From positions 1 to 64,000 of the forward strand of contig WLIV01000009.1 in NCBI GenBank assembly GCA_009702045.1: a stretch of DNA of 64,000 nt, given 5' to 3'. This document shows positions 230 through 54,693 of the stretch, in pieces. The stretch comes from Actinomycetota bacterium. Its GTDB lineage: Bacteria > Actinomycetota > Acidimicrobiia > Acidimicrobiales > Ilumatobacteraceae. Each line of letters opens with the position of its first letter. Positions within the stretch are counted from its first letter, which is position 1. The translations under genes and the position numbers were made by a program. Under the pieces are notes generated by a model. It saw only the letters and a program-made list of their open reading frames with translations. It was not told the DNA's origin and searched no databases.

Positions 230-243
230 TGACACATGTGTCA
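230..243. promoter_or_regulatory. TGAC-N6-GTCA operator, perfect palindrome
   Basis: TGACACATGTGTCA is identical to its reverse complement. It ends 11 nt before the ATG of the thiolase gene, and no ribosome-binding site separates them, so the transcript may be leaderless with the operator on the promoter. It is the best-formed copy of the motif repeated through the window. Confidence 0.7.
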
Positions 244-1446: not shown

Positions 1447-2514
1447 TCAGCGGTCGACGAAGTGCTGCAGCGTGGGCCCGAGCAGATCGGGCACCGCGCC
1501 ATGAATGACGAGCTCGTCCGCCCCCGCGTCCAGGTATTCCTGCAGGCGGCGGGCGCACGTGGCCGCTGAACCGGTGGCGGTGCCGTCCTCCAACCAGTGA
1601 CGGGGGAGTGACGCCGCAACCTCGGCCAGCTGGTCTTTGGTGAATGCCGTGTCGGCCGCGCCGCGCAGACCCTCGAGCATCGGGTGGGCGCGCAGCTTGG
1701 TCAGTTCCGCCGGGTCGAACCCGTTGACGCCGGCGAGCAACTCGCCGAACTCGGGGATCTGGTAGTAGGTGACGGCGCGGCCGCCGACAACTGCGGCTTC
1801 CTGCGCAGCGGTGAGGTCGGGCGCGGTGACCACGGTGGCGTAGACCTTCACCGACTCGGGATCGCGACCGGCCGCCTCGGCAGCGGCGCGCACCCGAGTC
1901 GCCGCTCGGCTGACGGCCTCGGTGGTGAGCATCGGATGCAGGATCGTTCCGTCGAAGTGCGTACCCGCGAGGTCAAGCGTCTTGGGCCCGATACCGGCCA
2001 GCAGGATCGGCGGCGGAGCGACGTCGGGCAGATCGCCGAGGCGTAGCGACGGGAACTTGCCGGCCGGGCCGTCGTAGCGCACCTTGCCGCCCTTGCAGAG
2101 TGTGCGGAACATCTCGGCGAAGTCGACGAGCACTTGGTTGGTCATTGCCGGCAGGCCGACGGCTTTCCACATCGGTGCGGTCGAGCGGCCGACGCCGAAC
2201 ATGAACCGCTCGCCACTGAGCGACTGCATCGTCATCGCCATACTCGCCAGCGCGAGCGGGTGGCGGAAGGCGAAGTGCGAGATACCCGACGCGATCTTGG
2301 CGTGCGAGGTGGCCTGGGCGATCGCGCCGCCGAGGACGCCGAGGTCTTTGGTGCCGTACCGCTCGCTGATCCAGATGGTGCCGAGGCCGAGGTGTTCGGC
2401 GGTGGTGGCCTGACCGACGGCGGCTCGAGGATCGGCGACGCGACCCGGCAGCACGTAGGCGCCAAGACGATCGAGCGGGTTGGGCGTACCTGGGGTGCGA
2501 GCGGTGGCGGCCAT
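1447..2514 (-). CDS. LLM-class (luciferase-like) F420-dependent oxidoreductase
   Basis: A 355-residue protein of the bacterial luciferase-like TIM-barrel superfamily, of the subgroup whose members mostly use coenzyme F420. Family features include an N-terminal strand L-G-A-Y-V-L-P-G-R, G-x-x-T-I-W-I-S-E-R, a S-G-I-S-H-F-A-F-R-H-P cofactor-side segment, and F-G-V-G-R. ATG at 2514 is chosen over the upstream GTG at 2532 because it matches the family N-terminus and leaves the TGAC-N6-GTCA operator (2525-2538) upstream. No Shine-Dalgarno sequence precedes it, so a leaderless message is likely. It is divergent from the kinase gene. Likely a hydride-transfer reductase or dehydrogenase; substrate unknown. 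Confidence 0.85.
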   Translation of the reverse strand: MAATARTPGTPNPLDRLGAYVLPGRVADPRAAVGQATTAEHLGLGTIWISERYGTKDLGVLGGAIAQATSHAKIASGISHFAFRHPLALASMAMTMQSLSGERFMFGVGRSTAPMWKAVGLPAMTNQVLVDFAEMFRTLCKGGKVRYDGPAGKFPSLRLGDLPDVAPPPILLAGIGPKTLDLAGTHFDGTILHPMLTTEAVSRAATRVRAAAEAAGRDPESVKVYATVVTAPDLTAAQEAAVVGGRAVTYYQIPEFGELLAGVNGFDPAELTKLRAHPMLEGLRGAADTAFTKDQLAEVAASLPRHWLEDGTATGSAATCARRLQEYLDAGADELVIHGAVPDLLGPTLQHFVDR

Positions 2515-2524
2515 GGGTCTACTC

Positions 2525-2538
2525 TGACACACGTGTCA
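2525..2538. promoter_or_regulatory. TGAC-N6-GTCA operator between divergent genes
   Basis: TGACACACGTGTCA has fully matching six-base arms around a two-base centre. It lies 10 nt before the LLM start on the minus strand. The preferred plus-strand kinase start, GTG 2533, lies inside its right arm. A bound regulator would block both genes. Confidence 0.7.
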
Positions 2539-7084: not shown

Positions 7085-8241
7085 TCAGAGATAGGCGCGG
7101 AAGCGGGCGCGGATGTCGGGAACGAACAGCTCTGGCACCTCGAGCGAAGGGAAGTGTCCGCCGCGCGGCTGCACTGCGTAGTACTCGAGGTTCAGCGCCA
7201 GTTCGAGGAAACCCCGCGGCGTGGCGAAGATCTCGGCCGGATACTGGGTGTGGCCGTACGGCACGTTCGTGGAGCGGGGCTGTGCCCGGCCGCTGCCGCC
7301 GATCTCCTCGTAATACAAGCGCATGGAAGAACCGATCGTGCCGGTGAACCAGTACACGCTGAGGTTGTCGAGCAGCCGTTCGAGCGGCACCGCGCCGAAC
7401 GGCGCATCGGCCAGGGGGCCGCTGTGGTCCGTCCATTCGTGGAACTTCTCGCCGATCCACGCCGCCAGGCCAGCGGGCGAGTCCAGCAGTCCGTAGGTCA
7501 GCGACTGCGGACGCGTCGATTGGATCGCCTGATAGCCCACGCCAGTGGCGGTGTTCCGGCGGGCTCGCTCCAGATTGACGCGGTCCGCGTCGGTCATGAT
7601 CGCCTCGCGGACCTCCTTCGCCGGCACCGGCACTCGCACCATCGTCTGGTGGAACGCGCGGACGTGCTGGGGGTGCCGTTCGGCGAGCGTGATGCCGATG
7701 ATCGAACCCCAGTCGCCTCCGAACACGAGGTACTGCTCGTAGCCCAGGTCGGTGACCAGTGCGTCCAGCGCGTCGGCGATGACGTCGACGTCCACACCGG
7801 CTCTCGTGGTCACGCCCGAGAACCCGTACCCCGGCAGCGACGGCACGATCACGTGAAACGCGTCCGCTGGGTCGGGCGGGTTGGTCAGCGGTTCGATCAC
7901 GTCGAAGAACTCGACCACCGACCCCGGCCAGCCGTGCACCAGCACGAGCGGGGGGCCTGCGGATGCGGCGAGCGAGCGTGGATCGCGTGCACCTGGACAC
8001 CACCAACGCCCACCTGGAACGTGCCGCGCACCTGTGGCCAGCGGTTGCAACGATCGACGAACGCGTCGAGGTCGTGGTCGGCCCACGCTAAACACAGATC
8101 GCGTAGGACTCGACGCGGCATGCCGTAGTCCCAGCCGACGTCGGGCAACTCGTCCGGCCAGCGCGTGGCCGCGAGTCGGCGGTGCAGGTCGTCGATCGAG
8201 TCGTCGTCGATCTCAAGTTGGAAGGGAGTCGCCAAGCTCAT
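7085..8241 (-). pseudogene. Epoxide hydrolase, interrupted by a frameshift
   Basis: Two adjacent minus-strand frames together make one epoxide hydrolase of about 385 residues. The N-terminal frame (8241 down to about 7950) has the EHN domain: D-D-L-H-R-R-L-A-A-T-R-W-P and W-D-Y-G. The second frame carries the alpha/beta-hydrolase core: H-G-W-P-G-S (oxyanion side), G-G-D-W-G-S with the nucleophilic Asp, and a late histidine region. They join if one base is added to the six-G run at 7950-7955, which restores P-P-L-V-L-V-H-G-W-P-G. As written the gene is broken. ATG 8241 has an AAGGA Shine-Dalgarno and overlaps the upstream TetR stop (ATGA). It may be true decay or a homopolymer sequencing error. 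Confidence 0.8.
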
Positions 8242-8694
8242 CGCACTCGTTCCTTCGTGGGTGGCTCGGGGGCCGCGCTCAGCGAACCGTGAGTGGGGAA
8301 CTCGTACTCTGCCGCGGTCCAGCCGTGCAGACCATCGTCCGAACGCAAGGACATGCCGAGGTTGCGTTCAATGTGGCGCGGCAACAGCACACGGATCAGC
8401 CCGAGGATCATCGACAACAGCACCTGGAAGCCGCGCTGACGCAGAGCGGGGTGGTCAGTTCCGGCATTCACTTCGGCGAGTTCGCTCCCCTGCGGTGCGC
8501 ACGATCTCGAGGACGTACTGATCGAATGGTGCGCGGAGACCTTGTTTCGAGCCGTAGTGGTGCACTACAAGCCCAGCGGTCACACCGGCGCGTTCGGCAA
8601 TCGCGCGCACGCTGGTGCCGTCATACCCGCGGACGCCAACGAGGATCAATGTTGCCCCGCGCAGTCGCGTCGCACCCCTGTCGTGCTCCACCAT
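8238..8694 (-). pseudogene. TetR-type regulator, interrupted by a frameshift
   Basis: The first frame (from ATG 8694) encodes a TetR DNA-binding domain: G-Y-D-G-T-S-V-R-A-I-A-E-R-A-G-V-T-A-G-L-V-V-H-H-Y-G-S-K. It runs out of frame after about 65 residues. A second frame continues with a helical C-terminal part (L-R-Q-R-G-F-Q-V-L-L-S-M-I-L-G-L-I-R-V-L-L). Removing one base from the four-C run near 8482-8485 joins them into a protein of about 150 residues, short for the family. It overlaps the epoxide hydrolase start by four bases, so it probably regulated that gene. It is divergent from the ferredoxin-P450 operon. Both genes of this pair carry a homopolymer frameshift. Confidence 0.65.
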
Positions 8695-8776
8695 CCCCAC
8701 GACGGCCGACTATACAACTGTTCAGCGCGCAGTGGGCGTGCGTGAGCCTCGTGCAGGTGCAGCCAGGGAATGTGCT

Positions 8777-8790
8777 TGACGGTATTGTCA
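8777..8790. promoter_or_regulatory. TGAC-N6-GTCA operator of ferredoxin-P450 operon
   Basis: TGACGGTATTGTCA, with symmetry extending outwards to CTTGACGGTATTGTCAAG (8775-8792). It contains TATTGT, a good -10 hexamer. It lies 60 nt before the ferredoxin start. Confidence 0.65.
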
Positions 8791-11296: not shown

Positions 11297-11310
11297 TGAC
11301 ACTAGCGTCA
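11297..11310. promoter_or_regulatory. TGAC-N6-GTCA operator between divergent SDR and hydratase
   Basis: TGACACTAGCGTCA, with TAGCGT as a possible -10 hexamer. It lies 30 nt before the plus-strand hydratase start and 77 nt before the minus-strand SDR start. Confidence 0.6.
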
Positions 11311-19291: not shown

Positions 19292-19305
19292 TTACACTCG
19301 TGTCA
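19292..19305. promoter_or_regulatory. TGAC-N6-GTCA-like operator, one mismatch
   Basis: TTACACTCGTGTCA differs at one base. It lies 41 nt before the minus-strand NTF2-like/molybdopterin operon and 83 nt before the plus-strand MFS gene. Confidence 0.45.
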
Positions 19306-22403: not shown

Positions 22404-23552
22404 TCAGGACTTGGTGAGCAGCATTGCGCCGGCGAAGGGGCCGACGGCGTTGGCCCACACCGACACATCGGCGCCGGCCACCTGACGCTCGCCGCACTCG
22501 CCACGCAACTGCTTGACGGCTTCGATGCAGAAGTTGGCGCCGTGGCGGCGGCCGACGTTGATCGCACCGCCGTCAGTGTTGACCGGCAGCGAACCGCCGA
22601 GGCTGGTGTTGCCCTCGGCGACGAACGGACCGGCCTGTCCCTGCGGCACCAAGCCGAGCGCCTCGAGCCACTGGAAGGTGATGACACTGAAGCCGTCGTA
22701 GAGGTGCGCCGTGGAGACATCGGAGGGCTTGAGGTCGGTGCGTGCCCACAGTTCCTTCGAGGCCTTCACCGGCGCGGTGCGCACCATGTCGGGCAGTGCC
22801 TCGAAGTTCATGTCGTGGATGCTGCACAGCGAGGATGAGTCGACGAACACTGCTGGCTGACGCAGATCGCGAGCGCGCTCCTCGGTGGTGAAGATCACGG
22901 CCGAGCCCGAGTCGCAGGGGTAGTCGCAGTCGAGGATGCGCAGCGGCTTGGTGATGTACGGCGTGCTGAGGAACTGTTCCTCCGTCAGCGGTGTGCGCTG
23001 CAGCGCATTGTCGTTCAGCAGTGCCCAGTTGCGCTGGCTGACAGCGAACTTGGCGAAGTGCTCCTCCGTGCTGTCGCTCTCATGCAGGTAGCGGTTCATC
23101 AACAGCCCGGCCCATTGGGTGGGGCTGAAGTTGCCGTATGGGTACTGGAAAACGGTGTCCGACATGCTGGGTGCGCCGAGCATCGCCCCGCCGGCAGCGA
23201 GCTTGGCGCTGCTGGGTTGCTGCATCATGATGCGGAACGCCATCACACAGTCGGCGTGACCGGCAGCCACTGCCTGGGCGGCGTGGTACGCGGGGGCGAT
23301 GAACGCGGGGGAGACGCCCACGTTGAGTTCCCAGCGCAAGTCTTGGAAGCCCATCATGTAGCCGAAGTCGACGGCGTCGCCGCCCCAACTGCCGACACCA
23401 TCGATGTCCTTGGCGGTGAGACCCGCATCGGCCAGTGCCGCGTTGGCTGCCTGGGCTGCGTGGTGGCGTTCGGTGAGGCCCGTGTTGCGGCCGACGTTCG
23501 AGTAGCCGACGCCGACAATCGCGACGCGGCGGTTCTTGGTGGTGATGGCCAT
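22404..23552 (-). CDS. Lipid-transfer-protein-type thiolase (aldolase candidate)
   Basis: A 382-residue thiolase-superfamily protein of the SCP-x/Ltp type. It has D-C-D-Y-P-C-D-S-G-S-A, H-L-Y-D-G-F-S, and the conserved N-T-D-G-G-x3-G-R-R-H-G segment, but lacks the C-x-G-G-G terminus of true thiolases. In steroid degradation Ltp2-like proteins act with a DUF35 partner as retro-aldolases that release propionyl-CoA or acetyl-CoA. That partner is encoded directly upstream, with its stop overlapping this ATG by one base (23552). Start set there rather than at the longer frame. Aldolase function is inferred from family and pairing. Confidence 0.85.
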   Translation of the reverse strand: MAITTKNRRVAIVGVGYSNVGRNTGLTERHHAAQAANAALADAGLTAKDIDGVGSWGGDAVDFGYMMGFQDLRWELNVGVSPAFIAPAYHAAQAVAAGHADCVMAFRIMMQQPSSAKLAAGGAMLGAPSMSDTVFQYPYGNFSPTQWAGLLMNRYLHESDSTEEHFAKFAVSQRNWALLNDNALQRTPLTEEQFLSTPYITKPLRILDCDYPCDSGSAVIFTTEERARDLRQPAVFVDSSSLCSIHDMNFEALPDMVRTAPVKASKELWARTDLKPSDVSTAHLYDGFSVITFQWLEALGLVPQGQAGPFVAEGNTSLGGSLPVNTDGGAINVGRRHGANFCIEAVKQLRGECGERQVAGADVSVWANAVGPFAGAMLLTKS

Positions 23553-23983
23553 CACGCCACCGTCCCTTCCCGCGTAACGGGGCGGAAGACCGGGATCGTC
23601 TTGTCGCCGAATTCGGCCCACTCGACTTGCACCGGCATACCGAACTCCACGTCGGCTTCGGTGACGCCCACGAGATTCGACTGGAAGTGCAGGTGCGGTT
23701 GCTCGGCGAGTTCGATGACGGCGATCAGGTACGGCACCTTGTCGACGAAGTAGGGGTGGAACGCCTTGTACGTCTCGGTGAACGAGTACACGGTTCCCTT
23801 GCCGCTGACCGGCTCGGGCTTGACGTCCATCGACTGACAGTTCCGGCACACGGGCTTGGGAAGGTGGATCCAGGTGCCGCACGACTGGCAGCGCATGATG
23901 AGCAACTGGTGGGCCGCGGAGCCTTCCCAGAAGTACAGCGTGAACGGGTCCTCGATGATCGGCGGCGGTGCCGGCTGGCTCAT
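23552..23983 (-). CDS. Zn-ribbon/OB-fold (DUF35) partner protein
   Basis: 143 residues with a rubredoxin-like zinc ribbon (Cys32-x2-Cys35 and Cys46-x2-Cys49) followed by an OB-fold (Y-S-F-T-E-T-Y and P-Y-L-I-A-V-I-E-L). Such proteins bind acyl-CoA and form complexes with lipid-transfer-type thiolases, like the DUF35 domain of ChsH2 with Ltp2. AGGAG precedes the ATG. First gene of the pair; a divergent operator region to the hydratase lies upstream. Confidence 0.88.
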   Translation of the reverse strand: MSQPAPPPIIEDPFTLYFWEGSAAHQLLIMRCQSCGTWIHLPKPVCRNCQSMDVKPEPVSGKGTVYSFTETYKAFHPYFVDKVPYLIAVIELAEQPHLHFQSNLVGVTEADVEFGMPVQVEWAEFGDKTIPVFRPVTREGTVA

Positions 23984-24022: not shown

Positions 24023-24044
24023 GTGTCAGCTGACACAGGCGTCA
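24023..24044. promoter_or_regulatory. Overlapping operator palindromes
   Basis: GTGTCAGCTGACAC (24023-24036) is a perfect palindrome, and TGACACAGGCGTCA (24031-24044) is a TGAC-N6-GTCA site sharing its right half. It lies between the divergent DUF35/thiolase and hydratase units, 39 nt and 31 nt from their starts. Confidence 0.65.
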
Positions 24045-32351: not shown

Positions 32352-33026
32352 TCAGCGGATTCCGATGCGTGCCGCTGCGGCTGTTACGAGTTCGATCGCG
32401 GCGGATGCGTCGAACGGAGCGGACTCGGGTGCTTGCACGCCGATGCTGGCGGTGGCGTCGCGTCCACGACGATTGATCGGGGCGGCGACGCAGTTCGACG
32501 GGTCGGATGCGTGCCCGCGACGCCTGGCAGCGGCAACGGCGGCAGGTTCGCCGACACTGCGAGGGCAGCCGGCGAGGATGGCAATACCGAACGCTGACTC
32601 GAGGATCGCCCGACGGAAGCCCGGTGGATAGCTGAGGTGGACGTTCGTGCCGACTGGTTCCACCGTCGCGAGGAACACGACGTCGTCCCCGTCGGCGATG
32701 GTGAGCACAGCGGTGCAATCGAGTGCGTCCGCGAGGCGGGTGAGTTCGGGCATCGCCGACTCGAGCACGTTGCTGGCGACACCGCGCACGAGGTCGAGCA
32801 CGCCCGGGCCGATGCGGAACGTGCCGTCGTCGTCGCGCACCACCAATCGGCGGCGGCTGAGCGTGCGTAACAGTCGGTAGGCGATGGGGCGGGCGATGGC
32901 GAGCTCGCCGGCGATCTGCGCCGGAGTCAGCGATGAGCGTGCTCCGCCCAACAGCTCCAGCACCGCAAGGCCGCGCTCAAGGGTCTGCGACACCTCACCC
33001 TGTTCGAACTCCACTCCAGCGGCCAT
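32352..33026 (-). CDS. IclR family transcriptional regulator
   Basis: 224 residues. The N-terminal winged helix is Q-T-L-E-R-G-L-A-V-L-E-L-L through L-T-P-A-Q-I-A-G-E-L-A-I-A-R-P-I-A-Y-R-L-L-R-T-L (about residues 14-60). The C-terminal part is a reduced IclR effector domain, ending about 25 residues short of the usual length. It is divergent from the CoA-transferase operon and upstream of a dehydrogenase pair, so it probably controls one or both. A pair of TA(G/A)TCGGAC direct repeats lies in the intergenic region. Confidence 0.87.
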   Translation of the reverse strand: MAAGVEFEQGEVSQTLERGLAVLELLGGARSSLTPAQIAGELAIARPIAYRLLRTLSRRRLVVRDDDGTFRIGPGVLDLVRGVASNVLESAMPELTRLADALDCTAVLTIADGDDVVFLATVEPVGTNVHLSYPPGFRRAILESAFGIAILAGCPRSVGEPAAVAAARRRGHASDPSNCVAAPINRRGRDATASIGVQAPESAPFDASAAIELVTAAAARIGIR

Positions 33027-39667: not shown

Positions 39668-41011
39668 TCAGCGTGCCAACAGCACGCGCTCGATGAACCG
39701 TGCCTGAGTCTCGACGAGTATGTCGGGGGTCGGCTGGTACTCGGTGCCCTTGCCCTCGTTGGGGTAGTGCTCGAGCAGTGCGGCGAGCATGATTCCGGTC
39801 GCCCGTCGTGACAGTCGATAGTCGCGCGGTGGACCAAACAGTTCGCGTACGGCGCCACCCAACTCGTTGACGATCACCCGGCTGGGTGCCAAGACAGCCA
39901 TCTCCACCGGGAACCCTTCGGTCCAGGCGCGCAATACTCCGCTGTAGCGCTCGTGCTGCGCGAGGAAGTGGAGTAACCAGGCGCGCAGTCGGGCCGGGTC
40001 GGGGCGCTCGCCGAAACCGGCCAGCTCGCCGAATGGGCCGGCCATCGCTGCCGCGCACTCGTTGGCCAGGGCCGTGATCAGTTGCAGCTTGTCGTCGAAG
40101 TAGCGGTAGAACGTGCCGCGAGCGACGCCCGCCTCGGTGACGATCTGGTCGACGTTGGCAACGTCGTAGCCGACCTCGGAGAAGACGCTCGCCGCTGCAT
40201 CGAGCAGGCCGCGCACGGTGTTCGTCGCTTGTGGGCTGAGCCCGGCGAAGGGATCGGTGGCGACGATCTGGTCGGGATCGGGGAGTGTGGAGAGTGGCCC
40301 GACGGTGTGGACCGACATCGCAGTGATGCGAGCCGTGTCGCTACCGTCGATCGACCTCGGGCCGGCGATGAGCACCTCGCGCGGCGTGTCGGGGAACATC
40401 GCCAACTGCAGTGCCACGGCCAGGCTGTCGAGCAGTTCGGCGTCAGTGATTCCCGGTCGGTACACGTGGCGGATGTAGTTGTAACGATTTGCCAGCGCGA
40501 GCACGAAGTTCGCCAACGTGCGCGCCTCCGCGGTGCTGAGGCCGCCTTGTTCCAGCGCGGTACTGAAACGTGCGTTGTGGCCGGCCACGAACTGGGCGAG
40601 CAGTGGCCGCAAGGGGTTCTTCGGTGAGTTGACGTTGGCCCACTCGATGAACATGGCGGCGTAGCGGTCGAACACCCACGACCATTCACCCAGCCACCAA
40701 TGCAGGTTGTCGAAACCCTCGGCGTTGGGGCCGAGTGCGCCGAGTCGCCGGGTGACGCGCATGATCGCGGTTCCCGCTGACTCCATCAGTTCGAGAAAGA
40801 TCGCTTCCTTGCTCTCGAAGTACTGGTAGAGCGTGGCGCGCGAGGTGGCAGCACCCGCCGCGATGTCTTCCATCGAGGTGCCGTGGAAGCCGCTCTCCTT
40901 GAAGCGGATGAGGGCGGTGTCGAGGATCTGCTGGCGGGTGCGCGCGCCGCGCGAGCCGATCACCGGACTGCTGGGGCCGTAACTGGTGCGACGTACGTTG
41001 GTACCTGCCAT
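39668..41011 (-). CDS. Tandem TetR-family regulator (two TetR modules in one chain)
   Basis: 447 residues with two complete TetR DNA-binding domains. HTH1 at about 25-72 reads Q-Q-I-L-D-T-A-L-I-R-F-K-E-S-G-F-H-G-T-S then A-T-L-Y-Q-Y-F-E-S-K. HTH2 at about 260-308 reads L-L-D-A-A-A-S-V-F-S-E-V-G-Y then G-T-F-Y-R-Y-F-D-D-K. Each is followed by its own helical ligand domain. This is the architecture of mycobacterial Mce3R, a repressor of lipid and steroid genes. ATG 41011 has GGGGGAGGGG upstream; a frame extension to 41092 runs across the operator at 41060 and is rejected. Likely represses itself and many units in the window. Confidence 0.9.
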   Translation of the reverse strand: MAGTNVRRTSYGPSSPVIGSRGARTRQQILDTALIRFKESGFHGTSMEDIAAGAATSRATLYQYFESKEAIFLELMESAGTAIMRVTRRLGALGPNAEGFDNLHWWLGEWSWVFDRYAAMFIEWANVNSPKNPLRPLLAQFVAGHNARFSTALEQGGLSTAEARTLANFVLALANRYNYIRHVYRPGITDAELLDSLAVALQLAMFPDTPREVLIAGPRSIDGSDTARITAMSVHTVGPLSTLPDPDQIVATDPFAGLSPQATNTVRGLLDAAASVFSEVGYDVANVDQIVTEAGVARGTFYRYFDDKLQLITALANECAAAMAGPFGELAGFGERPDPARLRAWLLHFLAQHERYSGVLRAWTEGFPVEMAVLAPSRVIVNELGGAVRELFGPPRDYRLSRRATGIMLAALLEHYPNEGKGTEYQPTPDILVETQARFIERVLLAR

Positions 41012-41059
41012 TGTGGCCCCCTCCCCCTGCTGTTCGGCGACGCCGATCCCGCGATCTTC

Positions 41060-41073
41060 TGACGTCCGTGTCA
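41060..41073. promoter_or_regulatory. TGAC-N6-GTCA operator at the tandem TetR gene
   Basis: TGACGTCCGTGTCA, 48 nt before the TetR start and 68 nt before the divergent DUF35 start. Its presence here is the main reason for suggesting the tandem TetR protein as the motif's regulator. Confidence 0.65.
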
Positions 41074-41087
41074 GACTACATCCCGTC

Positions 41088-41141: not shown

Positions 41142-41552
41142 ATGACGTTCCAACCGCTGCCGATGGTCACCGACGACAACGCGCCCTTCTGGGAGGGAGG
41201 CGAGGTCGGCGAACTGCGGATCAACCGCTGCCGTGAGTGCCGCACTTGGTTTCACCCGCCTGCGCCGGTGTGTCCGGAGTGTGTGTCGATGAACGTCGGC
41301 CCCGAGGTCGCGTCCGGACGCGCCAAGGTGGCCGCCTACACGATCAACGTGCAGGCGTGGTCGCCCGAGTTGGAGGTGCCGTACGTGCTGGCGTACGTGG
41401 AACTCGATGATCAGCCCGATGTGCGGTTGACGACGCGGTTGATCGACTGTGCCCCAGAGGATGTGCGCGTCGGCATGCCTGTCGAAGTCACGTTCCAGGC
41501 CGCCGACGACATCTGGCTGCCCCTGTTCCGCCCTGTGAAGGAGAACTCATGA
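41142..41552 (+). CDS. Zn-ribbon/OB-fold (DUF35) partner protein
   Basis: 136 residues: zinc-ribbon cysteines Cys30-x2-Cys33 and Cys44-x2-Cys47, then an OB-fold (A-A-Y-T-I-N-V and Y-V-L-A-Y-V-E-L). Same class as the 23552 protein but clearly diverged. Overlaps the following thiolase-type gene by four bases (ATGA), as expected for subunits of one complex. First gene of a three-gene operon, divergent from the tandem TetR gene. Confidence 0.88.
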   Translation: MTFQPLPMVTDDNAPFWEGGEVGELRINRCRECRTWFHPPAPVCPECVSMNVGPEVASGRAKVAAYTINVQAWSPELEVPYVLAYVELDDQPDVRLTTRLIDCAPEDVRVGMPVEVTFQAADDIWLPLFRPVKENS

Positions 41553-42754
41553 GCATTCCCGCACGAACTCCGGTGATCGGCGAACGCAACGCCGTCATCT
41601 CCGGTATCGGCCAGTCGGCCGTTGGGCGCAAGCTCGGCCGCACCGGTATCTCGCTCACGGTGGAGGCTGCGCTTGCGGCGATCGCCGATGCTGGACTCAC
41701 GCGTGATGACATCGACGGCGTGGCGTCGTATCCCGGTGCGATGGACGCGTCGCCTGGAATGGCGCCCACCGGTGTGCCCGAACTGAAGGACGCTCTGCGG
41801 CTGAAGGTGAACTGGTTCTCCGGTGGTGGCGAGGTGCCGGCGCAGCTCGGTGCCGTGTTCAACGCCGTCGCCGCCGTCTCGTGCGGCCTGGCCAACCACG
41901 TGCTCGTCTTCCGCACCGTCAACGAATCGACAGCGCAGACCGCCGGTCGCCGTGCCAGCGTCGTCGGTTCGGGAGGCAGCCGGATTGGTGGCGCGATGCA
42001 ATATCTCGTCCCATTCCATGCCGTGTCGGCTGCGAACTGGGTGGGTATGTACGCCCAGCGCTACATGCACGAGTACGGCCTGCAACGCGAGCACCTCGGC
42101 CAGATCGCGCTCAACGCCCGTCGTCATGCCGCATTGAACCCGCGGGCGATCTTTCGCGACCCGCTGACCATGGACGATTACATGAATGCCCGCATGGTCT
42201 CGTGGCCGCTCGGTCTGTACGACTGCGATATTCCCTGCGACGGTTCGGTAGCGCTGATCGTGTCCCGCGCGGATGCGGCACCCGACCTCAAGCAGGTCGT
42301 GCGCATCGAATCGATCGGTTCGGCACTGCACGGTCGCGACAGCTGGGACCAGCGTGAGGATCTCACCACCATGGCCAGTCACGATGCCGCGAAGATGATG
42401 TGGTCGCGCACTGATCTGAAGCCCACCGACGTGGACTCCGCGCATCTGTACGACGGGTTCTCGTACCTGTGCATGCAGTGGCTGGAGGCGCTGGGCTTCT
42501 TCCCCAAGGGTGAGGCTGCAGGCTTCCTCGAGGGTGGCGAGTCGCGTATCGGCCTCGGGGGCGAACTGCCGTTGAACACCAACGGCGGCCAGTTGTCGGC
42601 CGGTCGTTTGCACGGCTACGGCTACTTGCACGAGGCATGCGTACAGCTGCGTGGCGAGGGTGGCGATCGTCAGGTGCAGGGTGCCGAAGTGTCGGTCGTC
42701 GGTGCTGGCGGCGGCCCACTCGGTGGCTGCATCTTGCTCACCAAGGACCGCTGA
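41549..42754 (+). CDS. Lipid-transfer-protein-type thiolase (aldolase candidate)
   Basis: 401 residues, the second SCP-x/Ltp-like protein of the window. Shared with the 22404 protein: Y-D-C-D-I-P-C-D-G-S-V-A, H-L-Y-D-G-F-S, N-T-N-G-G-Q-L-S-A-G-R-L-H-G. No C-terminal C-x-G-G-G thiolase motif. With its DUF35 partner it probably cleaves a beta-hydroxyacyl-CoA by retro-aldol reaction. Followed 2 nt later by an APH-fold kinase gene, a conserved-looking association worth noting. Confidence 0.86.
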   Translation: MSIPARTPVIGERNAVISGIGQSAVGRKLGRTGISLTVEAALAAIADAGLTRDDIDGVASYPGAMDASPGMAPTGVPELKDALRLKVNWFSGGGEVPAQLGAVFNAVAAVSCGLANHVLVFRTVNESTAQTAGRRASVVGSGGSRIGGAMQYLVPFHAVSAANWVGMYAQRYMHEYGLQREHLGQIALNARRHAALNPRAIFRDPLTMDDYMNARMVSWPLGLYDCDIPCDGSVALIVSRADAAPDLKQVVRIESIGSALHGRDSWDQREDLTTMASHDAAKMMWSRTDLKPTDVDSAHLYDGFSYLCMQWLEALGFFPKGEAAGFLEGGESRIGLGGELPLNTNGGQLSAGRLHGYGYLHEACVQLRGEGGDRQVQGAEVSVVGAGGGPLGGCILLTKDR

Positions 42755-42756
42755 AC

Positions 42757-44115
42757 ATGCCCGACGACGACGCCAAGATCATTGCCTGGTTGGAAGGGCT
42801 GCTCGGTGGCAAGGTCGTCTCCTGGTCGCGTCAGCCACGTTGGCGGCCGATGTGGTTCGTCGACATCGAACGCAACGGCGTCGTCGAACGCGTCGTCGAA
42901 CGCGTCGTCGTGCGCGGCGAGCGCAGCGACTCGGTGCAGCAGTTCCCCCTCGATCACGAGATGCGCTTCCAGCAGGTGCTCGAAGCACAGGGAATCGCCG
43001 TGCCCCACGTCTACGGCTGGTGCGACGAACCCCGCGCCTATGCGATGGCGGCAGTACCGGGGCAGCCCGATTTCAAGGGCACTCCTCCGGCCGAACGGGC
43101 CGTGATCGTGGACGAGTATCTGCAGGAGCTCGCGCGTCTCCACACGTTGCCGCTGCAGCCGTTCATCGATGCCGGCATCACCCGCGGCGACTCGCCGGCC
43201 GACGCCGCGCACGTGGGCATCCGTCAGTTCGTGCGCGTGTTCCGCCAGATCAAGGTGCGCCCCGATCCGCTGATGGAGTTCGTGCTCGGCTGGCTCGATC
43301 GCCACCCGCTGCCGCCGTCGGAGCGTGAGGCGCCAGTGGTGTGGGACTCCGGTCAGTTCCACCACATCGATGGGCACTTCACCGCCGTGATGGACGTCGA
43401 ACTTGGTCACCTCGGCGACCCGATGATGGATCTTGCGGCGTGGCGGATGCGCGACACCGTCATCCCCTTCGGCGACTTCAACGCGTTGTTCGACCGTTAC
43501 GCAGAACTGACCGGCGCTCCGGTCGACATGGCCGCGATCCAGTACCACCACTTGTTCTTCACGCTCACGAACACGTTGTCGTTCCACCGGGCGTTGGCCC
43601 AGCCGATTCCCGCCACCGACTACATGACGTACGCCCAGTGGGTCAGCGAGACCAACCTGCACACGATCGAGACGATGGCCGAGTACCTCGGGATCACACT
43701 CGAAGACGTCGAGATCCCCGAGGCCCTCTCCACGCCCGTGTCCGCGCCGCACGAACACCTGTCGCGTTCGCTGCAGTCGATCAAGGTTGACGACCCATTC
43801 GTGGCATACCAGGTGCGCATCGCGTTCAGGCTCGCCCGCCACCTCGAGCGCTTCAACCAGATCGGCGGCGAGGTGCTCGAGCACGATCGGGCCGATATCG
43901 AGGCGATCATCGGCAAGAACGCGCCGCACAGCTGGGACGAGTGCGAGGCACTGCTGGAGGAGTTCGTGCTCGCCGACAACGGCGCGCACGATCTCGAACT
44001 GGTCAAACTGTTCAACCGGCGCTGGCGCCGTTACAAGGCGCTGATGGGCCCCGCTGGTTCGGCGATGGCCGCCCACCATGTGATGCAGCCGCTGGGTACG
44101 TCACTCTTGCCGTGA
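42757..44115 (+). CDS. APH-fold phosphotransferase-like protein with C-terminal extension
   Basis: 452 residues. Residues about 1-300 follow the APH kinase fold, with the catalytic loop changed from H-G-D-x4-N to V-W-D-S-G-Q-F-H: the Asp is kept but the metal-binding Asn is His. The second Asp (M-D-V-E-L-G-H-L-G-D-P) is conserved. About 150 extra residues follow, rich in charged helices (L-A-R-H-L-E-R-F-N-Q-I-G-G), unlike other family members. Kinase activity is therefore uncertain. It is coupled to the thiolase/DUF35 pair, suggesting action on the same CoA ester. A 12-bp tandem repeat near the N-terminus encodes V-V-E-R repeats. Confidence 0.75.
   Translation: MPDDDAKIIAWLEGLLGGKVVSWSRQPRWRPMWFVDIERNGVVERVVERVVVRGERSDSVQQFPLDHEMRFQQVLEAQGIAVPHVYGWCDEPRAYAMAAVPGQPDFKGTPPAERAVIVDEYLQELARLHTLPLQPFIDAGITRGDSPADAAHVGIRQFVRVFRQIKVRPDPLMEFVLGWLDRHPLPPSEREAPVVWDSGQFHHIDGHFTAVMDVELGHLGDPMMDLAAWRMRDTVIPFGDFNALFDRYAELTGAPVDMAAIQYHHLFFTLTNTLSFHRALAQPIPATDYMTYAQWVSETNLHTIETMAEYLGITLEDVEIPEALSTPVSAPHEHLSRSLQSIKVDDPFVAYQVRIAFRLARHLERFNQIGGEVLEHDRADIEAIIGKNAPHSWDECEALLEEFVLADNGAHDLELVKLFNRRWRRYKALMGPAGSAMAAHHVMQPLGTSLLP
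42880..42915 (+). repeat. 12-bp tandem repeat inside kinase gene
   Basis: GTCGTCGAACGC occurs twice and then once more as GTCGTCGTGCGC. It keeps the frame and encodes V-V-E-R, V-V-E-R, V-V-V-R. Copy number could vary between strains by slippage. Confidence 0.6.
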
Positions 44116-45183: not shown

Positions 45184-45197
45184 TGACACATTCGTCA
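45184..45197. promoter_or_regulatory. TGAC-N6-GTCA operator, hydrolase/MaoC divergent promoter
   Basis: TGACACATTCGTCA, 38 nt before the minus-strand hydrolase and 32 nt before the MaoC-pair operon. Confidence 0.62.
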
Positions 45198-45229
45198 ACT
45201 AACTTCGTCCACCGGAGAAGGAGGCTGTG

Positions 45230-45703
45230 ATGACCATCGAACGTTTCCCGGTCGAAGAAGGCCACATCATGTTGTTCGCCCGCGCGATCGGCGACACGAA
45301 TCCGGTCTACAGCGACCCAGACTGCGCTGCGGCGAGGGAACTGGGCGGGATCATCGCGTCGCCGACGTTTGTGGCCGGTGGCTCCCAGTTCGACGACGAC
45401 GTCGCCGTGCGTCCGAAGATCGGCCAGCCGTGGTTCGGCTCGGGCCGCACTCCCAGCGGATTCAACCGCGAGGCGGCCGGCCTGCTGCACGCCGAACAGC
45501 ACTTCGAATATCACCGCCCACTGCTCGCGGGCGAGGTGCTCACCACCGTGTTCCGTGAAGGTGAGCGCTGGGAGAAGACCAACCGCAGCGGTGGCACCCT
45601 CAAGTTCGAGGAGTCCGTCACCGAGTACCGCGTGAAGGCCACCAACGAGTTGGTCGTCACAGCGCGCATGATCAAGGTCATGCCGCCCAAGAAGGAGAGC
45701 TGA
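45230..45703 (+). CDS. MaoC-like dehydratase, non-catalytic-type subunit
   Basis: 157 residues of the FAS1-like/MaoC N-terminal hot-dog family. The motif where active hydratases have D-x-N-x2-H reads G-D22-T-N24-P-V-Y27: the catalytic His is Tyr. In HadAB-type and ChsH1-ChsH2 enzymes, one subunit of the pair loses its active site and shapes the substrate tunnel. The following gene supplies the intact motif. Shine-Dalgarno AAGGAGG points to ATG 45230 rather than the GTG three bases upstream. First gene of a three-gene operon. Confidence 0.88.
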   Translation: MTIERFPVEEGHIMLFARAIGDTNPVYSDPDCAAARELGGIIASPTFVAGGSQFDDDVAVRPKIGQPWFGSGRTPSGFNREAAGLLHAEQHFEYHRPLLAGEVLTTVFREGERWEKTNRSGGTLKFEESVTEYRVKATNELVVTARMIKVMPPKKES

Positions 45704-47107: not shown

Positions 47108-47121
47108 TGACTACATCGTCA
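47108..47121. promoter_or_regulatory. TGAC-N6-GTCA operator, NTF2-like/SDR divergent promoter
   Basis: TGACTACATCGTCA, 21 nt before the minus-strand start and 47 nt before the SDR GTG. The nearby GAGACTAACG (47131-47140) resembles the variant site at 29306. Confidence 0.6.
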
Positions 47122-47168: not shown

Positions 47169-47930
47169 GTGCAGATCAACGGCTTGCGGGCAATGATCGT
47201 CGGCGGCGCATCGGGCATGGCCCGGGCTACGGCCGAACGCATCGCCAACGGAGGCGGCAAGGTCGCCATCCTCGACCGCGCTGGCAGCGCAGGCGCAGAC
47301 GTCGCCAAGGAACTCGGCGGAGCGTACTTCGAGACCAACATCCTCGACTTCGAGGGCACTGAGGGTGTCATCGCTGACGCCGTTGCGTGGCTCGGTGGCC
47401 TTGATGCGGTCGTCACCACCGCTGGTGGCGGTACCGGCAAGCGCACGCTCACCAAGGACGGCCCGCACCCGCTCGACGAGTTCCGTGCGGTGGTCGACCT
47501 CAACCTGACCGCCACATTCAACATCAACCGTCTCGCCGCCTGGCACATGAGCAAGAACGAGCCCAACGAGGACGAGGAGCGCGGCGTGATCATCAACACC
47601 GCCTCGATCGCCGCCTTCGAGGGGCAGATCGGTCAGATCGCCTACACCGCATCGAAGGCCGGCGTCGCCGGCATGTGCCTGACGATGGCCCGCGATCTCG
47701 GCTCATTCGGCATCCGCGTGAACGCGATTGCGCCGAGCTTGTTCGACACGGGTGCCACCGCTGGTATCCCCAGCGAGTTCTCGGCCATGCTGGTCAAGGA
47801 CGCCGCGTTCCCCAAGCGCATGGGCAAGCCCGACGAGTACGGCCGCCTTGCCGTCGCGATCATCGAGAACCCGATGCTGAACGGCAGTTGTATCCGTCTC
47901 GACGCCGGGCAGCGCTTCGCGCCCAAGTGA
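47169..47930 (+). CDS. SDR family, HSD17B10-like hydroxyacyl-CoA dehydrogenase
   Basis: 253 residues: V-G-G-A-S-G-M-A-R-A-T at the nucleotide loop, Y-T-A-S-K catalytic pair, and N-A-I-A-P-S-L-F-D-T after it. The order F-E-G-Q-I-G-Q-I-A-Y-T-A-S-K is close to type-10 hydroxysteroid dehydrogenases, which oxidise short branched 3-hydroxyacyl-CoAs. AAGGAG precedes the GTG start. Monocistronic, convergent with a hydratase. Confidence 0.88.
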   Translation: MQINGLRAMIVGGASGMARATAERIANGGGKVAILDRAGSAGADVAKELGGAYFETNILDFEGTEGVIADAVAWLGGLDAVVTTAGGGTGKRTLTKDGPHPLDEFRAVVDLNLTATFNINRLAAWHMSKNEPNEDEERGVIINTASIAAFEGQIGQIAYTASKAGVAGMCLTMARDLGSFGIRVNAIAPSLFDTGATAGIPSEFSAMLVKDAAFPKRMGKPDEYGRLAVAIIENPMLNGSCIRLDAGQRFAPK

Positions 47931-47966: not shown

Positions 47967-48722
47967 TCAGACGCCTTGCGTCTTGGCTCGCGCCACCACG
48001 GCGCTCATGTTCTCGTTCAGCGTGTCGCTGCCGACGCCATGGAACCCGCCCTCGCGGGCGATCTCCATGTGCCGATGGTGTGCCTGCTGCACGGGCAGTG
48101 CGCCGGTCTCGTCCCAGTCGCGACGCATCGTGGCGACCATCGCGGCCGGCTGTTCGGCGATCGCCTGCGCAAGCGTGAGGGCGAACTCCAGCAGCGCTTC
48201 GGGCGGCACCACGTGGTTGACCAGGCCGATGCGCAGCGCAGTCTCGGCGTCGACAAAGTTGCCGGTGAGGCTCATCTCGCGGGCTTTGGCCATGCCCACT
48301 CGCCGGGGCAACTCCACCAGCACCGGGCCGGGGTACACGCCCACGCGCAGGTGGGTGTCGGCGAACGCGGCGGCCGTGGAGGCGACGATGAAGTCGCACG
48401 CCAACGCAACCTCGAACCCGCCGGTGACCGCTGGGCCGTTGACGGCGGCGATGACCGGCACCTGGCTGGCCGTCACCGATGCGATGAACGGCGGCAGGTC
48501 CATCAGTTTGTCGGTGCCGAGGTTGCGCAGGTCGAGGCCGGCGCAGAACGCCGTGCCGTTGCCAGTGAGGACGATGCACTTCGCGTCCTGACAGTCAGCC
48601 ATCGCGGCCACGAGCGCGGAGGCGAGCTCAACGTTCACCGCGTTGCGCGCGGCAGGTCGGTTGAGGGTGATGATCGCGACGTCGCCGTGACGTTCGATCA
48701 GTACTACGGGTTCGCCTGGCAT
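47967..48722 (-). CDS. Enoyl-CoA hydratase/isomerase
   Basis: A 251-residue crotonase: L-N-R-P-A-A-R-N-A-V, F-C-A-G-L-D-L-R, V-N-G-P-A-V-T-G-G-F-E, and F-A-D-T-H-L-R-V-G-V-Y-P-G-P, where a small residue replaces the first catalytic Glu region. The second half (G-L-V-N-H-V-V-P-P) is standard. ATG 48722 is 10 nt from an operator, with no Shine-Dalgarno, so a leaderless message is likely. Divergent from the Gfo/Idh gene. Confidence 0.88.
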   Translation of the reverse strand: MPGEPVVLIERHGDVAIITLNRPAARNAVNVELASALVAAMADCQDAKCIVLTGNGTAFCAGLDLRNLGTDKLMDLPPFIASVTASQVPVIAAVNGPAVTGGFEVALACDFIVASTAAAFADTHLRVGVYPGPVLVELPRRVGMAKAREMSLTGNFVDAETALRIGLVNHVVPPEALLEFALTLAQAIAEQPAAMVATMRRDWDETGALPVQQAHHRHMEIAREGGFHGVGSDTLNENMSAVVARAKTQGV

Positions 48723-48732
48723 GCAGCGATTC

Positions 48733-48746
48733 TGACAGATGTGTCA
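48733..48746. promoter_or_regulatory. TGAC-N6-GTCA operator, hydratase/Gfo-Idh divergent promoter
   Basis: TGACAGATGTGTCA, 10 nt before the hydratase ATG and 33 nt before the oxidoreductase ATG. Confidence 0.62.
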
Positions 48747-53871: not shown

Positions 53872-54693
53872 TCAGCTGCGGCGGGGTGACTTCGGTACGA
53901 GCACCTTTGAGTTCGGCTTCTTCGCGGAGCTGCTGCGTCGAACGGGCAGCCGCGGCACCTCGCCGTCGTAGTAGTCGATCAGCTGATCGCCGGTGGCTTC
54001 GATCATGTAGGTCATCTGCTGCTGCCAGTGGCGTCGCGCGCCGCCGGCGTCGCCAGCTTCGATGAGGCTGATCAGCTTGGTGTACGACCGGGCGGCGCGT
54101 TGCATGAGCTCCTGGCTGGCATCGCGGGCTCCGAGTGCATAGCGGCTCTCGACCAACTGGTGCAGCAACTGCGAGAACAGCGACAGCGTGGTGTTGCGGC
54201 CGCGCTCGAGCAGCAGCGTGTGGAAGCGACTGGCAGCGATCGCGAACGCCGCCTGATCGTTCTGCTCGGCTGCGGTGCGAGCCGCCTCCCCGGCATCCTG
54301 TAAGAGAGCAAGGTCGTCGGCATCGTGGGCGGTGGCCAGCCATGCAGCCAGCTCGGGCTCGATCAGCAGGCGGGCCGAGTCGAGATCAGCAAACGTGGTA
54401 GCGCGCATCTGGAGCGCTCCGGCGAAGGACTCGGAAAGCCGTGACAGGTCGGGCATGGTGACGGTGCCGCCACCACCGCGCCCGCGTTTGATGTGGATCA
54501 GACCCTGCGACTCAAGCACGCGTAGCGCCTCGCGCAGCGTCGTGCGCGCGATACCGAACTGTTCGGTGAGCTCCTCCTCTGTGGGCAGCTTGGTGCCGAC
54601 CGGGAGCTCGCCACGCACGATTCTGTGACGTAGCAACGCAGCGACGGCCTCGCCGGTCTTGTGCTTCCGTCCCTCTGCTGCGCCTGCAGCCAT
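53872..54693 (-). CDS. GntR family regulator, FadR/FCD subfamily
   Basis: 273 residues. N-terminal winged helix: A-A-L-L-R-H-R-I-V-R-G-E-L-P-V-G-T-K-L-P-T-E-E-E-L-T-E-Q-F-G-I-A-R-T-T-L-R-E-A-L-R-V-L (residues about 16-58). C-terminal FCD ligand domain: L-L-I-E-P-E-L-A-A-W-L-A, F-H-T-L-L-L-E-R, H-W-Q-Q-Q-M-T-Y-M, with the metal-binding His pattern. FadR-type members sense acyl-CoAs or organic acids. ATG 54693 has GAGCGAGG in front. Divergent from the MFS gene and probably cotranscribed with the hydratase. No clear GntR palindrome was recognised nearby. Confidence 0.9.
   Translation of the reverse strand: MAAGAAEGRKHKTGEAVAALLRHRIVRGELPVGTKLPTEEELTEQFGIARTTLREALRVLESQGLIHIKRGRGGGGTVTMPDLSRLSESFAGALQMRATTFADLDSARLLIEPELAAWLATAHDADDLALLQDAGEAARTAAEQNDQAAFAIAASRFHTLLLERGRNTTLSLFSQLLHQLVESRYALGARDASQELMQRAARSYTKLISLIEAGDAGGARRHWQQQMTYMIEATGDQLIDYYDGEVPRLPVRRSSSAKKPNSKVLVPKSPRRS

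Follow-up and report, generated by a model that had tools for sequence, protein, structure and literature searches.

A predicted double TetR regulator and its candidate palindromic operator among acyl-CoA catabolic genes of an uncultured actinobacterium

In mycobacteria, lipid catabolism is repressed by KstR and KstR2, which are TetR regulators with a single unit. Mce3R of M. tuberculosis (PDB 9b7y) carries two TetR units per chain, as does the protein described here. According to the accessible text of PMC11667970, a single Mce3R chain makes up an asymmetric unit whose two different heads sit on a 25-bp non-palindrome, two such chains pair with each holding its own duplex, and the genes under its control include cholesterol-metabolism enzymes. 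Its authors present it as the first double-TFR structure, and the same text cites 204 putative members in actinomycetes for the double-TFR subfamily, in which two distinct TetR sequences lie in one gene. BkaR, in the accessible text of PMC3920632, is an autoregulated repressor whose dimer binds a palindrome in its own promoter, and both autoregulation and a palindrome are proposed for the present regulator; BkaR has, however, one TetR unit per chain and a core, GTTA(N)T(N4)A(N)TAAC, unlike the operator described here. Knowledge of double TetR regulators has so far come from a single solved structure, whose operator is non-palindromic. Described below is a second lineage, apparently a separate one, with a predicted palindromic operator and with predicted targets recurring over several genomes.

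The window, that is, the whole stretch of 64,000 nucleotides that was analysed, comes from an uncultured genome of 3.65 Mb in 56 contigs. Its list of open reading frames holds a 447-aa product, with an ATG at 41011, in which the initial annotation had seen two full TetR modules. Pfam TetR_N indeed matches this protein twice (108.6 bits in total; cut-off 24), both domains exceeding the curated cut-off of 24 bits for PF00440. Two complete TetR units with intact heads are thus found in one chain, which fits the double-TFR subfamily as outlined in PMC11667970.

39668..41011, minus strand, double TetR regulator gene (open reading frame, two TetR_N domains, five orthologues aligned end to end)
40787..40927, minus strand, first TetR DNA-binding domain, residues 29-75, recognition helix SRATLYQYF (Pfam PF00440, 60.9 bits)
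40067..40207, minus strand, second TetR DNA-binding domain, residues 269-315, recognition helix ARGTFYRYF (Pfam PF00440, 58.9 bits)

The five orthologues, from genomes of the same family, align over 438-447 residues with 53-87% identity, the nearest named relative being L048 from an Acidimicrobiaceae MAG (87%). An alternative longer reading of 474 aa from 41092 would place the site at 41060, described below, inside the gene; the 447-aa start is preferred, without being proven, because the aligned orthologues begin near it and because stops lie upstream in the same frame, 20-25 codons before the start, in L048 and L049. The first recognition helix (residues 57-65) is identical in all 49 aligned members, an invariance that is biased since RATLYQYF, from head 1, was one of the two search seeds. 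The second recognition helix, which was in no seed, keeps R298, Y302, Y304 and F305 in all 49 members and T300 in 48. Identity between the two helix-turn-helix regions averages 0.38 (44 positions, 49 sequences), with 0.32 in the 447-aa protein and 0.34 in Mce3R, so that the heads here are not claimed to be more alike overall.

An AlphaFold2 model built from 49 family sequences reached a pLDDT of 85.4 and a pTM of 0.84. The comparison of a predicted structure with Mce3R, proposed in the initial annotation, gave a whole-chain match. Mce3R came first in VIA-align (Z 22.3, 356 of 385 residues, rmsd 5.2, 17% identity), and the next entry among the matches listed, EthR, aligned as one unit (Z 13.8 over 189 residues). 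Foldseek also ranked Mce3R first (E 8.2e-8), but with a loose overlay (rmsd 9.8). The predicted model has the whole-chain fold of 9b7y. Orthology with Mce3R finds no support in the sequence comparisons. The phmmer comparison (42 bits, 4.1e-10) aligned the halves in order but only over the helix-turn-helix regions, both Mce3R halves fitted the C-terminal half (positions 253-411) best in a family profile search, and the Mce3R halves grouped together, apart from the halves here, in a tree whose deep nodes are weak and whose branches are long; collinear homology over both halves is not supported. The operators differ as well, a 25-bp non-palindrome for Mce3R in the accessible text of PMC11667970 and a 14-bp palindrome for the candidate operator here, to which binding is predicted. 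The targets are a point of likeness, those here looking acyl-CoA catabolic and those of Mce3R including the cholesterol-metabolism enzymes mentioned above. To judge from these comparisons, the protein likely works like Mce3R, but its being an Mce3R orthologue is not supported. The earlier label "Mce3R-like" holds for the double architecture and the whole-chain fold; likeness in sequence is at the helix-turn-helix level, and the label is not extended to orthology. One Mycobacterium genome carries both a distant Mce3R relative (L188, 35% over the first half) and the family member L086, and the seven other genomes of the eight searched gave no match to the Mce3R half at 1e-15.

The TGAC-N6-GTCA site that had been noticed 48 nt upstream of the ATG corresponds to TGACACGGACGTCA (forward-strand letters TGACGTCCGTGTCA), which is imperfect, with two mismatches to the consensus TGACACNNGTGTCA.

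41060..41073, minus strand, own operator TGACACGGACGTCA, core TCTGAC-N6-GTCAGA spanning 41058-41075 (kept upstream in all six close orthologues)
41073..41078, minus strand, -10-like hexamer TAGTCT overlapping the operator, a putative promoter element (read from the sequence; arrangement kept in all six close orthologues)

TGAC-N6-GTCA stands upstream of the gene in all six close orthologues, the window's gene counted, where about 0.0055 sites per 250 bp would be expected by chance. Read in gene direction, the six own-promoter sites are TGACACGGACGTCA (twice), TGACACGCACGTCA, TGACACGAACGTCA, TGACACCAGAGTCA and TGACATGCGCGTCA, with the common core TAGTCTGAC-N6-GTCAGA. The gene-proximal half differs from GTGTCA in all six, and the distal half is TGACAC in five and TGACAT in one. 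Such unlike halves might reflect a separate half-site for each head and a directional operator; promoter constraint or descent could explain them equally well, given the overlap of the -10-like box with the distal flank and the relatedness of the genomes.

Two identical heads would be expected to select a symmetric operator, and a rough tally of half-sites, made by hand and without a script, gave no clear asymmetry. Both points speak for binding as a homodimer of chains with a single kind of head per palindrome (M1-M1 or M2-M2). This arrangement is nevertheless unlikely, as Mce3R uses two different heads within one chain (accessible text of PMC11667970), the predicted model matches Mce3R end to end, and conservation extends to both recognition helices. 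Coverage of both arms of the palindrome by one chain is somewhat more likely than not, on the analogy of the fold; we infer this placement rather than take it over from Mce3R, since the published operator of the latter is non-palindromic.

The window holds 10 copies of TGAC-N6-GTCA where 1.75 are expected, and none of 100 shuffles reached 10. Over the whole genome, this loose pattern is in only mild excess (81, reversed control 55) and TGACACNNGTGTCA at up to one mismatch in strong excess (23 against 3), seven of the 23 sites lying on contig C56 (six in the window) and seven on contig C14. The double TetR gene was detected in six of 200 family genomes, including the window's own (E up to 1e-30). 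All six hold exact TGACACNNGTGTCA (6, 3, 4, 4, 1 and 5 sites, 23 altogether), and one of them holds the reversed control (1 site). Among the 194 genomes without the gene, exact TGACACNNGTGTCA was found in 25 (32 sites) and the reversed control in 21 (22 sites). Outside the gene-carrying genomes, the background of TGACACNNGTGTCA in these exact counts is therefore about that of the control. Within the genus, exact TGACACNNGTGTCA occurs in all four genomes with the gene and in none of the 11 without it. At up to one mismatch, sites and controls in the five other gene-carrying genomes number 19 and 1, 18 and 3, 22 and 2, 10 and 5, and 21 and 2. Genome G055 counts for little because its only exact TGACACNNGTGTCA site sits within a called gene and its one-mismatch excess is small (10 against 5). 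The Fisher values treat the genomes as independent even though they are related, so that they overstate independence and serve as a guide only; the window's genome (G000) and G063 are close, with 87% identity in the double TetR and 97% in the single TetR of contig C14 discussed below.

The six genomes hold 113 sites at up to one mismatch, all taken into the inside/outside count; 99 lie outside called genes and 14 inside, in stretches of which genes trimmed by 40 nt per end cover 82.6%. The gene caller was home-made and placed the 45184 and 48733 sites and the own operator of G049 inside genes; one of the 14 intragenic sites is a recognised error of this kind. The window shuffles, the genome-wide excess, the co-occurrence with the gene and the extragenic placement rule out that the motif is due to chance or is a coding repeat.

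The candidate sites and the genes beside them are as follows, the sites being given without strand.

41142..44115, plus strand, divergent genes sharing the intergenic region with the double TetR gene: ChsH2-type OB-fold/zinc-ribbon, thiolase-like and APH-like proteins (Pfam)
230..243, site TGACACATGTGTCA, 11 nt before a thiolase gene at 255-1430 (Pfam thiolase; same gene preceded in four of six genomes)
2525..2538, site TGACACACGTGTCA, 10 nt before a luciferase-like monooxygenase gene at 1447-2514, minus strand (four of six genomes)
8777..8790, TA-centred site TGACGGTATTGTCA, read as the operator of another TetR
11297..11310, site TGACACTAGCGTCA, TA-centred, between divergent SDR and enoyl-CoA hydratase genes (four of six genomes, including G141)
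19292..19305, site TTACACTCGTGTCA, between divergent genes for an MFS transporter and a 243-aa protein
24031..24044, site TGACACAGGCGTCA, between a ChsH2/thiolase-like pair (22404-23983, minus strand) and an enoyl-CoA hydratase gene
45184..45197, site TGACACATTCGTCA (two mismatches), before a FAS1-DH/MaoC gene at 45227-45703
47108..47121, degenerate site TGACTACATCGTCA, before an SDR gene at 47169-47930 (counterparts in G067 and G141)
48733..48746, site TGACAGATGTGTCA, 10 nt before an enoyl-CoA hydratase gene at 47967-48722, minus strand (same distance in G063)

In G067 and G141, a counterpart of the 45184 site precedes a gene of the same kind; the open reading frames called over the 45184 site and over the 48733 site are taken to be false. 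The 243-aa protein beside the 19292 site has no Pfam match at 1e-5, and NCBIfam lipid-transfer and thiolase models scored below their cut-offs on the products of 41142-44115. Forty target groups recur in at least two of the six genomes, a count in which divergent pairs are entered on both sides, TA-centred sites are included, stretches were chosen by hand with some listed places left out, and some groups come from the G000/G063 pair alone. The distance to the start is kept while the bases of the site vary before the thiolase MPEAVIV (11 nt, four genomes) and the thiolase-like MTLEVEK, and likewise before the lipoprotein-like start of the MIKHSKK type and the SDR MDLRVDD.

By Pfam, the targets include thiolase, luciferase-like monooxygenase, enoyl-CoA hydratases, SDRs, ChsH2-like/thiolase-like pairs, a Rieske oxygenase with a KshA-type C-terminal domain, an AMP-binding ligase, isochorismatase, amidohydrolase, and glyoxalase-type and MaoC proteins, and the neighbours of the double TetR are acyl-CoA catabolic genes. 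The ChsH2 and KshA names point to steroid-like substrates, though tentatively, as a steroid thiolase model scored under its cut-off (495.8 against 515 bits). Two ChsH2-like/thiolase-like pairs, at 22404-23983 and 41142-42754, each adjoin a site, in an arrangement that we take to resemble that of steroid side-chain aldolase pairs.

A single TetR gene on contig C14 (19349-20023, minus strand) has TGACACTAACGTCA in its own promoter (C14:20031-20044) and sits amid the second cluster of sites. Its product occurs in five of the six motif-rich genomes, and the 11297 site TGACACTAGCGTCA resembles its own-promoter site, as would be the case if the motif were mainly that of the C14 TetR and the double TetR its target or a bystander. 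Such a division of roles is improbable. Present in 12 of the 200 family genomes, the C14 TetR is found in seven that are without the double TetR, and exact TGACACNNGTGTCA occurs in only one of these seven; G141 has four exact sites and no copy of the C14 TetR at E up to 1e-20 in an assembly that is 79% complete. Moreover, the own-promoter sites of the C14 TetR and those of one SDR operon, MCEGRV, where a TA-centred site is kept in all five genomes in which the operon was seen, are mostly TA-centred, against one of 22 exact TGACACNNGTGTCA sites outside genes. Relatives of the C14 TetR have TTGACANTA-like sites in L046, L047 and L038 and the variant CGACAGTA in L039, and the six relatives belonging to genus g22 (L040-L045) showed none.

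Since the C14 TetR goes with TA-centred sites and seldom with exact TGACACNNGTGTCA, the pattern TGAC-N6-GTCA seems to mix two related operators, the TA-centred one going with the C14 TetR, which is apparently a companion regulator whose operator is related yet different. The motif as first proposed is thereby narrowed: the double TetR stands as candidate for TGACACNNGTGTCA, and the loose pattern seems not to describe a single operator. A TA centre alone cannot assign every site because the TA-centred 11297 site, which could for that reason belong to either regulator, is also present in G141. The flank bases separate the two operator types poorly, position -1 being C in 46% and T in 33% of half-sites with other centres, and C in 39% and T in 47% of those with TA centres. 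Downstream of the TA-centred 8777 site lies a broken-looking TetR-type gene with frame changes and stops (window 8236-8770, minus strand), which could be a pseudogene or an assembly error; across the site from it are a short ferredoxin-like gene, recognised by eye, and a P450 gene (Pfam).

Relatives of the double TetR extend to distant actinobacteria. A contig scan gave 72 loci, 65 of them with long matches; 60 of these were new, and L048-L052 were the five orthologues already found in the family genomes. Exact TGAC-N6-GTCA stands within 250 bp upstream in nine of 64 loci, five being the close orthologues, and is absent there from the other 55; most members from Mycobacterium, Nocardia and Pseudonocardia showed no such palindrome in their own promoters. 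The ranking of palindromes left out L113-L119 (short matches), L108 (no upstream DNA) and 10 near-duplicate loci, and rested on 48 non-redundant loci outside the Acidimicrobiaceae-type group, from Mycobacterium, Nocardia, Rhodococcus, Frankia and others. TGACA-N4-TGTCA showed the top standardised excess among pentamer-N4 palindromes (16.6; 12 found, 0.25 expected), while several G+C-rich pentamers were commoner in raw counts. TGAC-N6-GTCA near the regulator was found in 15 of the 48 loci and tied with a G+C-rich GGCC version (15). TGACA-N4-TGTCA or TGACACNNGTGTCA with one mismatch matched 39 times in the window and 64 loci, the defining group included, and the reversed patterns 0 times; over 11 whole named genomes, TGACA-N4-TGTCA is in modest excess (42 against 14 reversed).

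Six of the 12 TGACA-N4-TGTCA sites lie just after the regulator, in Williamsia (L079, L088), Rhodococcus (L083), Nocardioides (L092, L094) and Tomitella (L096), about 75-225 nt past its stop; wherever genes were called, an SDR gene follows the site. In five of these loci the retrieved DNA gave no further TetR, and L092 has one 9 kb off. In eight Frankia-type loci, a one-mismatch site overlaps the start codon of the regulator. The site lies a few bases after a -10-like box in L056, L057, L058, L059, L061, L069, L075 and L089, a layout that suggests a leaderless transcript blocked by its own product.

Other regulators of the cluster were weighed as readers of the motif, namely an IclR-type protein (32352-33026), a GntR-type protein (53872-54693) or one that went unnoticed. 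As members of the cluster, the IclR-type and GntR-type genes could be carried along with it, but their own promoters are without a motif site, the IclR gene is present in only two of the five other motif-rich genomes and missing from three at 1e-15, and no homologue of either turned up in the six loci from Rhodococcus, Williamsia, Nocardioides and Tomitella where TGACA-N4-TGTCA follows the double TetR. A role of this kind is very improbable. The stretch 64001-80000 of C56, which holds two more TetR genes (65778-66308 and 79104-79664), is free of sites. Another double TetR of the same genome, on contig C31 (16413-17675), was rejected as the motif's regulator for want of such a site directly upstream; it is divergent, has a similar N-terminal signature and lies beside genes that look by eye like branched-chain-type ABC transport.

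The double TetR probably regulates its own gene and the target set through TGACACNNGTGTCA, a reading that is weakened by G055 and strengthened by the full count of 113 sites and by the IclR result. Its early choice as best candidate for the motif is borne out by the whole-chain match to Mce3R, the own-promoter site in six of six orthologues, the co-occurrence of gene and motif, and the palindrome beside distant members. The footprints and the co-occurrence would also be compatible with another protein travelling with the gene. In the mechanism proposed, each chain would fold as an internal pseudo-dimer, and the regulator would repress its own gene by covering the -10 region, probably also the divergent ChsH2/thiolase-like genes, and about twenty further acyl-CoA catabolism operons concentrated in two clusters (contigs C56 and C14). 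Repression rather than activation is suggested because the operator overlaps the -10-like box. A pathway intermediate is assumed to fill the ligand cavity and release the repressor, most likely an acyl-CoA because the targets look acyl-CoA catabolic.

A broader reading is put forward tentatively and is somewhat doubtful: the proteins may form a widespread actinobacterial double TetR lineage, apparently fused apart from Mce3R, in which two non-identical heads on one chain would read a palindrome, an asymmetric monomer thereby serving a symmetric operator. Such a lineage would open to experiment the way in which a fused, asymmetric repressor reads symmetric DNA. With the predicted operator, genes of acyl-CoA catabolism could be sought both in uncultured Acidimicrobiaceae-type bacteria and next to the regulator in Rhodococcus, Williamsia and Nocardioides. 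Among the titles and abstract openings searched, no report of a TGACA/TGTCA operator with a double TetR appeared.

The runner-up in the palindrome ranking of the 48 loci was GACAG (standardised excess 16.1). Its matches and those with a spacer of 6 form a second palindrome family, TGACAGTNNACTGTCA, in mycobacterial loci. In five of these, a single TetR gene has TGACAGTNNACTGTCA directly upstream (L072 at 17735, L076 at 17800, L081 at 16556, L090 at 15568 and L091 at 15437), which makes it a third related palindrome near the same catabolic genes.
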